A program made the translations under genes and the position numbers. From the NCBI RefSeq assembly GCF_016907915.1, contig NZ_JAFBCW010000022.1:1-43548 (forward strand): DNA of 43,548 nt. Reading direction: 5' to 3'. The notes under the pieces were generated by a model. That model was not told the DNA's origin. It made no database searches and saw nothing but the letters and a program-made list of their open reading frames with translations. This document shows positions 29,583 through 34,039 of this stretch, piece by piece (position 1 is the stretch's first letter; every line of letters begins with the position of its first letter). The DNA comes from Desulforadius tongensis. Its GTDB lineage: Bacteria; Bacillota; Desulfotomaculia; Desulfotomaculales; Desulfohalotomaculaceae.

Positions 29583-29834
29583 ATGCAGGTGCAGCTAAAA
29601 GAGATGAATTTTGAAGATGCGCTGTTCCGGCTGGAGGAAGTGGTTAAAAAGCTGGAAGACGGTCAGCTGCCGCTGGAACAGGCGCTGGAACTGTTTGCTG
29701 AAGGTATTGAACTGGCTAACGTGTGTAATAAAAAGCTGGAAGCTGCGGAACAGCGGATCAATACCCTGGTAACTAACCAATGCGGGGAACCAGTACTGGA
29801 AGAAGCTCCGGGGTATGGGGGAGGGCAGTTTTAA
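29583..29834 (+). CDS. xseB: Exodeoxyribonuclease VII small subunit
   Basis: An 83-aa helical hairpin protein, the small subunit of ExoVII. The core is [40 protein letters not shown], then [13 protein letters not shown], as in the family. AGGAGG at 29575-29580 supports GTG 29589 (8-base spacing) slightly better than ATG 29583 (2-base spacing). It overlaps ispA by 20 bases if ispA starts at 29815. Confidence 0.93.
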
Positions 29835-30720
29835 AGTGGACTTTTTACAGCAGTTAAAAGAACGGGCTAAAATGGTGGAAGACGCCTTTGAACAGTATAT
29901 ACCCCGGGAGTCTGCCTATCCTTCCGCTATACACCGGGCCATGCGGTACAGCCTGCTGGCCGGTGGCAAGAGATTAAGACCGGCGCTGGTACTTGGTGCC
30001 GCCGAAGCGGTGGGCTGCGATCCCCGGCGGGTAATGCCCACTGCCTGTGCCTTGGAATTAATTCACACTTATTCGCTGATCCACGATGATTTGCCGGCAA
30101 TGGATAACGATGAACTGCGCCGGGGGAAACCAACCAACCACGTGGTTTTTGGTGAAGCCATGGCTATTCTGGCCGGTGATGCATTGTTAACCATGGCATT
30201 CCAATTAATGGCTGAAAACAGCAGGACTGCTCCGGCAGAGGCAGTGGTGCAGGTAATACGGGAAGTGGCCAGGTTATCCGGTTCCCAGGGATTGATAGGC
30301 GGCCAGGTGATGGATACCGTATCGGCAGATAACGAAGTGGACAGTGAAACTTTGGAATATATTCACCGGCATAAAACCGGGGCGCTGTTCCGGGCTGCGG
30401 TGCGTTCCGGTGCCATACTGGGAGGTGCCGGCGAAAAACAGCTGCGGGCACTGACAGGCTATGCGGAAAACCTGGGCCTGGCCTTTCAGATAGTGGATGA
30501 TATTTTGGATGTGGAGGGTGACACTGCAAAAATCGGTAAACCGGTGGGCAGCGATGAAAAGAACAAAAAAGCCACCTACCCGGCACTGTTCGGTATTGAA
30601 GCAGCACGGCAAAAGGCCCGGCAGGCGGCAGACAATGCCATTAAAGCATTAAGTATTTTTGGGCCGGAAGTGGAATTTTTGCGCGCTGCCGTGCATTTTA
30701 TAATTAATAGGGATCATTAA
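29815..30720 (+). CDS. ispA: Polyprenyl (farnesyl/geranylgeranyl) diphosphate synthase
   Basis: A 301-aa all-helical trans-prenyltransferase that condenses IPP with allylic diphosphates. The first Asp-rich motif is [19 protein letters not shown] and the second [20 protein letters not shown] binds IPP. The residue before the first motif is typical of short-chain (C15/C20) synthases. ATG at 29815 overlaps xseB; GTG at 29836 (behind GGGGGAGGG) is an alternative start seven residues later. It is directly upstream of the OLE RNA promoter, as in other OLE-containing Firmicutes. Confidence 0.95.
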
Positions 30721-30835: not shown

Positions 30836-30864
30836 TTGATAGTATAAGTTAATTATGCTATAAT
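30836..30864 (+). promoter_or_regulatory. Promoter of OLE RNA
   Basis: TTGATA (30836-30841), a 17-base spacer and TATAAT (30859-30864) with TG one base before the -10 give a near-consensus, extended -10 sigma-A promoter. Transcription should begin at about 30871, just where the conserved OLE sequence begins. So OLE RNA can be made independently of the upstream operon. Confidence 0.75.
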
Positions 30865-30870
30865 CTTTAC

Positions 30871-31470
30871 GCAGGAAAAAAACCGTGGATAAGTGATGCA
30901 GTATCCTAGTCAGAACTGCCTTTTCGAAAGCGGGCCTAAAAATCCGCAACGGGCACATCGATGAAGTTCCTGGTGCTTGCTTTCGACGCCCAGTCGGGGG
31001 CGGTGCTGGGAGTTAAGGTGATAGGGCAGCCACAAGGGCATGTGGGAACTGACCCTGCACCGTGGAGGCCCAAGGCGTGGTTGGTAAAATCACCCTTGGG
31101 AAAACCTGCACGTGGGGAAAGCTGCGTGCAGCGTAGCCTGCCTTGAGTGGTAACGGTGGATTCCATGAAGGGGCTTTGCTCAGTCTGGGCCCATTCTGGG
31201 TAAAGTCCGGATGAAACCCTTACTGCAAAAGAGGCTAGAAAAGGTTTGTTCTGTTGAGGAAAACTCCTAGGCTGTCTGGTGTTAAACCAGGGCTTGCCGG
31301 GGATTTCAGTGCGGACTAAGTGGTAATCTAGCCCCGGAACCGGTGACGGCCGGAAAAGGCCTTAAAGGGAAACCGCCAGTCTGGCGACAGCTGGTGGCCT
31401 TTTGGGAAAACCTGCTAGACCTAAGCCGCAACGTTTACCCGGTAAGTTATCACTTACACATTCGGTTACA
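30871..31470 (+). ncRNA. ole: OLE RNA (ornate, large, extremophilic)
   Basis: About 600 bases without a credible gene separate ispA from the OapA-like gene. They are GC-richer and densely paired compared with normal intergenic DNA. Examples: TGCCTTTTCGAAAGCGGGC near 30916, GAGGCCCAAGGCG near 31065, ACCTGCACGTGGGGAAAGCTGCGTGCAGC near 31105 (two arms of a stem), and GTGACGGCCGGAAAAGGCC near 31340. The start (CCGTGGATAAGTGATG), the GNRA-like loops, the size, and the position between ispA and the OapA gene just before dxs agree with OLE RNA as known from Bacillus halodurans and anaerobic Firmicutes. Known OLE binds membrane protein OapA and affects stress tolerance. Ends are approximate. Confidence 0.88.
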
Positions 31471-31480
31471 TAAATTAGTT

Positions 31481-31510
31481 GCATGGGCTGCTAAAAAGCA
31501 GCCCATATGC
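31481..31510 (+). other. Strong hairpin between OLE RNA and oapA
   Basis: GGGCTGCT (31485-31492) pairs with AGCAGCCC (31497-31504) around AAAA, with flanking GCAT/ATGC. No T-run follows, so it is unlikely to terminate. It may cap the OLE 3' end or separate it from the oapA RBS. Confidence 0.5.
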
Positions 31511-31535
31511 GTATTTCCGGATGGGGTGGTAATGA

Positions 31536-32120
31536 TTGGGCCATAATAAATCCAGTGTATCCGGCTCATATATACTATTAGTTGGAATAGGTTCATTTTC
31601 GCTGGCCGTAATTTTTGCCATTATTTCCGAGCTGTTTGTTCGTAAATTAGATAATATAGCGTTATCTTTTATCATTTTGTTGGTAATTATATTTATAGGT
31701 ATAATTTCCGACACTTTGGGAACGGCTGTAACGGCAGCCCAGGAAACCCCTTTTCATGCCATGGCGGCAAAGCGCGTTATGGGTGCCCAGCAGGGCGTAT
31801 ACTTAATACGCAATGCCGACCGGGTGGCAAATATAGCCAATGATGTAATAGGAGATATTGCCGGAACGGTTTCCGGTGCCTTGGGCATATCAATTGTGGC
31901 CCGCTTAATAATGCTCAATCCCGGCTGGGATGCATTTATTCTCAATATCCTCATAACTTCATCCGTAGCCTCAATAACGGTGTCCGGGAAGGCTTTGGGC
32001 AAAAAATTTGCTTTGAGCCGTCCAAACAACATTATTTTTTTTGTCGGTAAGAACATGGCGCGGTTGGAGAAACTTTTGGGACAAGATCCCTTTCGCAAAA
32101 ACCGTCGCTCCAAAGGATAG
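31536..32120 (+). CDS. oapA: OLE-associated membrane protein OapA
   Basis: A 194-aa membrane protein with several helices: [21 protein letters not shown] (22-42), [21 protein letters not shown] (49-69) and a pair near the middle and end ([32 protein letters not shown]). The cytoplasmic tail is basic ([21 protein letters not shown]), suited to RNA contact. Size, topology and position directly after OLE RNA and before dxs match OapA. In B. halodurans OapA dimers hold OLE RNA at the membrane. TTG at 31536 has GGGGTGG six bases upstream. The identification rests on context plus topology. Confidence 0.85.
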
Positions 32121-32143: not shown

Positions 32144-34039
32144 TTGAATTTACTGGACAGCATTTATTCACCGCAGGATGTTAAGGCATTAAGCAGCAGG
32201 CAGCTGCAAATACTGGCCGGTGAGCTCCGGGAGGAGATAATAAAAACCGTTTCTAAAAATGGCGGGCACCTGGCTCCCAATTTGGGGGTGGTGGAGCTGA
32301 CGCTGGCCATCCACAGGGTTTTTGATACCAGTAAAGATAAAATAATCTTTGATGTCGGTCACCAGTGCTACGTGCATAAACTGCTTACCGGGCGCCGGAA
32401 AGAGTTTCACACCCTGCGCCAGTATGGAGGCCTGTCAGGGTTTCCCCGCTGTGCCGAAAGCATTCACGATGCCTTCGGCACCGGTCACAGCAGTACATCA
32501 ATTTCCGCTGCTTTAGGTATGGCGGTGGCCCGGGATCTGCGCCGTGAGAATTACTCTGTGGTGGCGTTAATCGGTGACGGTGCCATGACCGGCGGGATGG
32601 CCTTTGAGGCCCTTAATCATGCCGGCCACCTGGGGAAGGATTTAATTGTTATTTTAAACGACAATGAAATGAGCATTGGAGAAAATGTGGGGGGGTTGTC
32701 CAAATACCTCACCCGTATTCGTACCGATCCAATGTATTCCCGGGGTAAAGACGAAATTGAAAACCTGCTTAAAAAGCTGCCCATCGGCAAGCAGGTATTA
32801 AAGGTGGCCGAACGATTAAAAGACAGCTTAAAATACCTGGTGGTACCGGGAATGTTATTTGAAGAACTGGGCTTTACTTACTTGGGACCAATAGACGGCC
32901 ATAATATAGAAGAAGTTACCAGCATACTAAAGCAGGCCAGGGCGATGAAAGGACCGGTGCTGGTTCATGTCATAACCAGAAAGGGCAAAGGATATAAACC
33001 GGCGGAAGAAAATCCCGATAAATTTCACGGTGTTGGTCCCTTTGACATTGTGTCCGGGGAAGTAAACAAAAAGAACGGCGCGCCAACCTATACATCGGTA
33101 TTCAGTGATACGCTGGTTAACCTGGCCGGGCAGGATGAAAGAATACTGGCCATTACTGCAGCCATGGCCGGCGGTACCGGCCTGTCACAGTTTGCCGAAC
33201 GTTACCCGGAACGCTTTTTTGACGTGGGCATTGCGGAACAGCATGCTGTAACGCTGGCGGCCGGTATGGCCAGCAGTGGATACAAACCGGTGGTGGCCAT
33301 ATATTCAACATTTATGCAGCGGGCCTACGATCAGGTGCTGCATGATGTGTGTCTGCAAAACCTGCCGGTGGTATTTGCCATTGATCGTGCCGGTATTGTC
33401 GGTGATGACGGTGCCACTCACCAGGGTGTATTTGACATAACTTTTATGCGTTCCATACCCAACCTCACTGTGATGGTACCCAAGGATGAAAACGAGCTGC
33501 AGCACATGTTAAAAACGGCTTTAGAGCACCCGGGACCGTGTGCAGTGCGCTACCCCAGGGGTTCCGGTGTAGGCTGTTCCATGGATGAAACCCCGCTGGC
33601 ACTGCCCATGGGAAAGGCCGAGGTGCTGCGCCGGGGCAGTGATATAACCCTGGTAGCTGTGGGCAACATGGTACCGGTGATTGAAGAAGCGGCCCGGGAA
33701 CTGGCCAAGCTGGGTGTACAAGCCACTGTAATCAATGCCCGGTTTGTAAAGCCGCTGGATGAAGAATGTATTGCCCACTATGCCGGCAGAACCGGGCGGG
33801 TTATCACGGTGGAGGAACATGTTCTGGCCGGCGGGTTCGGCAGCGCGGTTTTAGAAATGCTGGAATCCAGGGGCCTGAGCGGCGTTAAAGTAACCAGATT
33901 TGGAATTGGTGACGAGTTTGTAGAACACGGTCACCCGTCAATAATGCAGGAACAATACGGGCTGACGGCAGGCAGTATTTTAAAGCAAGCCCTGTACATG
34001 GTGGGGAAAAGACCCAGGCTGCAGGCGGCCCAGGAATAA
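32144..34039 (+). CDS. dxs: 1-deoxy-D-xylulose-5-phosphate synthase
   Basis: A 631-aa thiamine-diphosphate enzyme for the first step of the MEP isoprenoid pathway. The TPP-binding motif is [21 protein letters not shown] with [12 protein letters not shown]. The pyrimidine domain has [15 protein letters not shown] and [20 protein letters not shown]; a C-terminal transketolase domain (residues 500-625) follows. Length is normal. TTG at 32144 has AAAGG upstream. It is downstream of ispA and OLE/oapA, so early and late isoprenoid genes share this locus. Confidence 0.97.

Follow-up and report, generated by a model that had tools for sequence, protein, structure and literature searches.

Introduction

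OLE RNAs are abundant RNAs of about 600 nt found at the membrane, and their protein partner OapA binds OLE RNA 2:1. OLE is among the largest structured bacterial RNAs. According to PMC11332333, OLE has been reported in more than 2,800 genomes, and OapA is marked by a DxxxD motif that CNNM domains lack; for Halalkalibacterium halodurans OapA, the same source already describes similarity to CorB. In H. halodurans, ole belongs to a large operon but is served by a promoter of its own as well (PMC9723947), and its polycistronic transcription has been reported (PMC12265935). In cryo-EM models, the GGGCCC loop of the P9 arm forms a kissing-loop dimer contact (PMC12265935). Furthermore, P6 of H. halodurans OLE mimics the 16S anti-Shine-Dalgarno sequence, and bS21 binding needs this mimic (PMC12054373), a feature demonstrated for H. 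halodurans only and not a class-defining trait.

Here we analyze the corresponding locus in a 43,548-nt stretch of Desulforadius tongensis DNA, referred to as the window. It very probably holds an authentic ole-oapA unit, with nothing missing, that belongs to the known OLE ribonucleoprotein system and comes from the Desulfotomaculum order; this assessment covers the explanation as a whole, including the unit, the promoter, the fold, the ribonucleoprotein and the stress role.

Identity and completeness of the OLE RNA

The OLE RNA and the genes that enclose the unit are as follows.

30877..31469, + strand: OLE RNA (RF01071), full length (cmscan against Rfam 15, model positions 1-616)
29815..30720, + strand: ispA (farnesyl diphosphate synthase), upstream (NCBIfam NF045485, above cut-off)
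32144..34039, + strand: dxs, downstream (NCBIfam TIGR00204, 885 bits)

When the entire window was searched with cmscan, RF01071 was matched over the whole model at 499.2 bits (E 1.3e-143; gathering score 50), giving an RNA of 593 nt by the Rfam model. A sequence-only reading had taken about 600 non-coding, paired bases at this place for OLE RNA, as part of a complete OLE/OapA pair flanked by ispA and dxs, and had proposed a search with the OLE covariance model as a check; that search was positive, the pair is present as it was read, and the coordinates given for it are correct. The searched 2.58-Mb source genome contains a single copy of OLE, and matches were obtained in 101 of the 113 genomes of the order, where OLE is thus near-universal. 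Elsewhere in the window, positions 20-90 match group II intron domain V/VI (RF00029, 45.5 bits), the remainder of which would fall outside the window.

An alignment of 48 OLEs was used to assess how far the RNA is preserved. With a conserved column defined as one at least 97% identical across 41 other full-length OLEs of the order, 248 of 252 such columns are kept in the window OLE. All four departures fall in one stem, the P7 arm, a label assigned from stem order. Deviation at near-invariant positions is what a decayed OLE, or a structure arisen by chance, might display, yet the retention of the other conserved columns together with a covariance score of 499 bits refutes both, and the probability left to them is negligible. 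Nothing counts against the identity of the RNA as OLE.

Stems and loops of the OLE RNA

The structural elements discussed below are located as follows.

30890..30897, + strand: terminal stem P1, 5' strand (UAAGUGAU), from sequence; pairs with 31449-31456
31449..31456, + strand: terminal stem P1, 3' strand (AUCACUUA), from sequence and an end-swap test
31069..31100, + strand: P7 arm, remodelled, from the alignment (four departures from columns conserved at 97% or more)
31170..31208, + strand: P9 arm, from sequence and alignment, with the GGGCCC loop at 31187-31192

Across 38 loci, the 5' and 3' ends of an OLE pair better with each other than with swapped ends (-22.2 versus -17.0 kcal/mol). The GGGCCC loop of P9 and the loop letters of the P5.1 and P6.1 hairpins are all present in the window OLE according to the alignment. 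The RNA would fold into the known ornate structure, and the P5.1/P6.1 and P9 loops probably mediate its dimerisation. The 3' strand of P6 reads GACCCUGCACC; the SD/ASD mimic (CCUCC) is absent from P6 of the window OLE, and CCUCC was found in only 5 of the 48 OLEs of the order. Therefore, not every published contact can be transferred to this RNA, and any binding between bS21 and OLE here would not proceed via a CCUCC sequence.

Promoter and transcription of ole

The proposed promoter lies immediately upstream of the RNA.

30836..30864, + strand: extended -10 promoter of ole (TTGATA-17-TATAAT with TGn; conservation)

It comprises TTGATA at 30836-30841, a 17-nt spacer and TATAAT at 30859-30864, with TG ahead of the -10 box. 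The near-consensus character noticed earlier thus holds, with 11 of 12 positions matching. From the spacing, transcription is predicted to start at about 30871. Because promoter-like sites are no commoner in that region than chance predicts (2 found versus 2.4 expected), support for the promoter comes from its conservation: TGn with at least five of the six TATAAT bases occurs just upstream in 46 of the 48 OLE loci. The promoter score cut-off was reached by 94% of OLE loci versus 1.9% of shuffles, figures that do not amount to a formal probability because the shuffles were mononucleotide and the loci, although from families spanning the order, are related and not independent. A conserved activator site ahead of the -35 box was also considered, but the columns there showed only weak preferences.

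Alternatively, OLE could be made only via a long ispA-ole-oapA-dxs transcript from which it is then excised, the promoter-like site being incidental. Polycistronic transcription is reported for H. halodurans (PMC12265935), and the search for a terminator between ispA and ole gave nothing convincing, just a weak 6-pair stem at 30680-30695 (3 sites versus 2.2 expected). However, the extended -10 box recurs at nearly all OLE loci, often with equal spacing to the RNA start, and it also precedes OLEs located away from oapA that come with a terminator-like stem of their own. Moreover, an ole promoter has already been reported in H. halodurans (PMC9723947). We consider exclusive production by excision very unlikely. 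The preferred reading is that a strong extended -10 promoter dedicated to ole starts the RNA, which is possibly also read within the ispA-dxs operon; the two modes of transcription proposed in the sequence-only reading, readthrough and independent, are plausible, since the H. halodurans gene combines an operon with its own promoter (PMC9723947). The conservation of the box upstream of OLE across the order supports dedicated transcription.

OapA and the other protein partners

The reading frame downstream of ole is the following.

31536..32120, + strand: oapA, 194 aa, TTG start (homologues, DxxxD, CNNM-like predicted fold)

The TTG start follows a GGGGTGG ribosome-binding site, and the protein ends in the basic tail RKNRRSKG. 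No Pfam or NCBIfam model matched this ORF at a meaningful score, and no PDB sequence match was found for it. Homologues occur in 51 of 60 relatives, mostly directly downstream of OLE. The DxxxD motif is D103-VIG-D107, and both aspartates are invariant in 29 aligned OapAs. The AlphaFold model (mean pLDDT 74.9) has long helices at residues 10-37, 41-67, 94-127 and 133-161, which would form the four membrane helices of a CNNM-like fold. It is closest to the CNNM proteins CorB/CorC (Z 13.2, 2.3 A over 129 residues), the next unrelated chain reaching 7.7; Foldseek returned weak E-values but a probability of 1.00 for CorB. The multi-helix, basic-tailed protein of the sequence-only reading is thus recovered in its predicted helices and its tail, and the suggested check against OapA turned out positive by the DxxxD motif, the CNNM-like predicted fold and the place beside OLE. 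On motif, predicted fold and synteny, we identify the ORF as OapA. In one other genome (G018:C61:55896-56467), oapA appears to be broken into two matches that overlap and lie in different frames, owing to a frameshift or an assembly error.

Homologues of the ribonucleoprotein partners OapB and OapC are both encoded in the source genome. The OapB candidate matches the PDB entry for OapB, 7k9b (E 3.6e-10), and sits between map-like and infA-like ORFs, while the OapC candidate matches YbxF (YbxF-like 3v7e; E 3.8e-15) and is flanked by rpoC-like and rpsL-like ORFs, these four neighbor names being read from translations rather than searched. OapB homologues were found in 56 of 60 relatives. A second L7Ae-type match lies on contig C7 of the source genome. 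A bS21 homologue is also encoded there. No CNNM/MpfA protein was found in the source genome, which fits the reported anticorrelation between MpfA and OLE. In the proposed working of the unit, OapA would hold OLE RNA at the membrane, OapB and OapC would assist by binding the RNA, and by analogy with H. halodurans the complex may help the cell under stress from cold, alcohols or excess Mg2+.

A hairpin between ole and oapA

A further element separates the two genes.

31485..31504, + strand: hairpin GGGCTGCT-AAAA-AGCAGCCC, with no U run, between ole and oapA

Its fold has a z of -2.35. Each of the five genomes of the GTDB family with a readable ole-oapA junction has it once, always at this position. 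The 16-base stem core is identical in all five; the flanking bases vary yet still pair in some of them. In two other genomes of the order, the same core stands beside unrelated genes, with T runs or past a gene end. Most other clades have a short ole-oapA spacer without the hairpin, and therefore the work of OLE and OapA does not need it. A dispersed repeat was ruled out by the single copy in the source genome. An ordinary intrinsic terminator was likewise rejected, as no T run is present and the terminator scan did not list the hairpin.

In our view, the hairpin is more likely to be an end-protecting, processing or attenuating element than a full terminator. One may ask whether it exerts control, either as a weak terminator or attenuator, so fixing how much free OLE RNA is made relative to oapA mRNA, or as a signal for cleavage or protection of the OLE 3' end. 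Such control would be an addition to the explanation given above, not a replacement for it. The constant core and position within the family, its uniqueness in those genomes, the preserved pairing of changed flanks in some of them and the stems of the same core with T runs downstream of unrelated genes in two other genomes speak for it, whereas the missing T run, the lack of the hairpin in most other clades and the small sample of five genomes speak against it; we regard it as a tentative possibility, somewhat below even. We regard as fairly unlikely the fuller scenario in which the hairpin is dedicated to setting the 3' end of OLE in this family, OLE started at its own promoter is thereby released apart from oapA mRNA, and bS21, should it be a partner in this order at all, recognises OLE with no need of the ASD mimic.

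The fold of 31440-31570 had hinted at a switch, with the oapA ribosome-binding site pairing to the 3' strand of P1. It was dropped because, across the 38 loci, own partners pair no better than swapped ones (-11.3 versus -10.9 kcal/mol, mean rank 18 of 38), whereas P1 passes the same comparison.

Unusual OLEs and a probable loss among relatives

In family f4 and in genome G015, OLE is shorter: the P9 arm is missing and the P13 loop is altered. Shortened forms among the relatives are L068-L073, the P13-loop change being seen in the three examined base by base (L068, L071 and L073). These short OLEs have their own promoter and lie away from oapA, most with a terminator-like stem downstream. L069-L073 are standalone OLEs unlinked from oapA, and OapB is present in their genomes. 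The short forms resemble variant 1 as described in PMC11332333. Close to one standalone OLE, a TwoAYGGAY RNA motif was matched (L071:2255-2412, - strand; RF01731, 45.8 bits).

Genome G024 carries both a full-length ole-oapA pair (L024, contig C13) and a P9-less standalone OLE (L068, contig C26); the latter lies near L21/L27/obg-like ORFs and has a promoter and a terminator-like stem of its own. G024 is the sole intact two-OLE case among the 113 genomes of the order, and the passages found in PMC11332333 make no mention of genomes with two OLEs. Conversely, G030, G039, G047 and G087, all of genus g27 and 92-96% complete, gave no OLE match. Three genomes of this genus were tested further; no OapA homologue was found in them and OapB is retained, and the absence of OLE is likely a clade-wide loss.

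Significance and comparison with known systems

The window offers a good new example of the known OLE/OapA system. With thousands of copies on record, this OLE adds little by itself and its value is comparative: the order supplies natural variants, including a remodelled P7, P9-less standalone OLEs and a P6 without the ASD mimic, that can serve to test what has been published on structure and partners. OLE, OapA, their gene neighborhood, the promoter of ole and polycistronic transcription are all already published. The hairpin, the remodelled P7 and the missing P6 mimic are modest extras, and none shows a new function.

Compared with H. halodurans, the locus has the same full-length RNA, oapA directly downstream, isoprenoid neighbors and an ole promoter; the genome likewise encodes OapB and OapC homologues, and OapA has the DxxxD motif and a predicted CNNM-like fold. 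In contrast, P7 of the window OLE is remodelled, its P6 lacks the CCUCC mimic, and ole and oapA have a family-specific hairpin between them. Variant 1 OLE (TANB77 type; PMC11332333) belongs to the same RNA class, but P9 and the P13 loop are both retained in the window OLE. With the CNNM Mg2+ transporters MpfA, CorB and CorC, the window OapA shares a predicted transmembrane fold (Z 11-13). It differs from them in its DxxxD motif, in adjoining OLE, and in having no CBS or CorC domain within its 194 aa. The protein is called OapA, and not a CNNM transporter, because of that motif and its place beside OLE.
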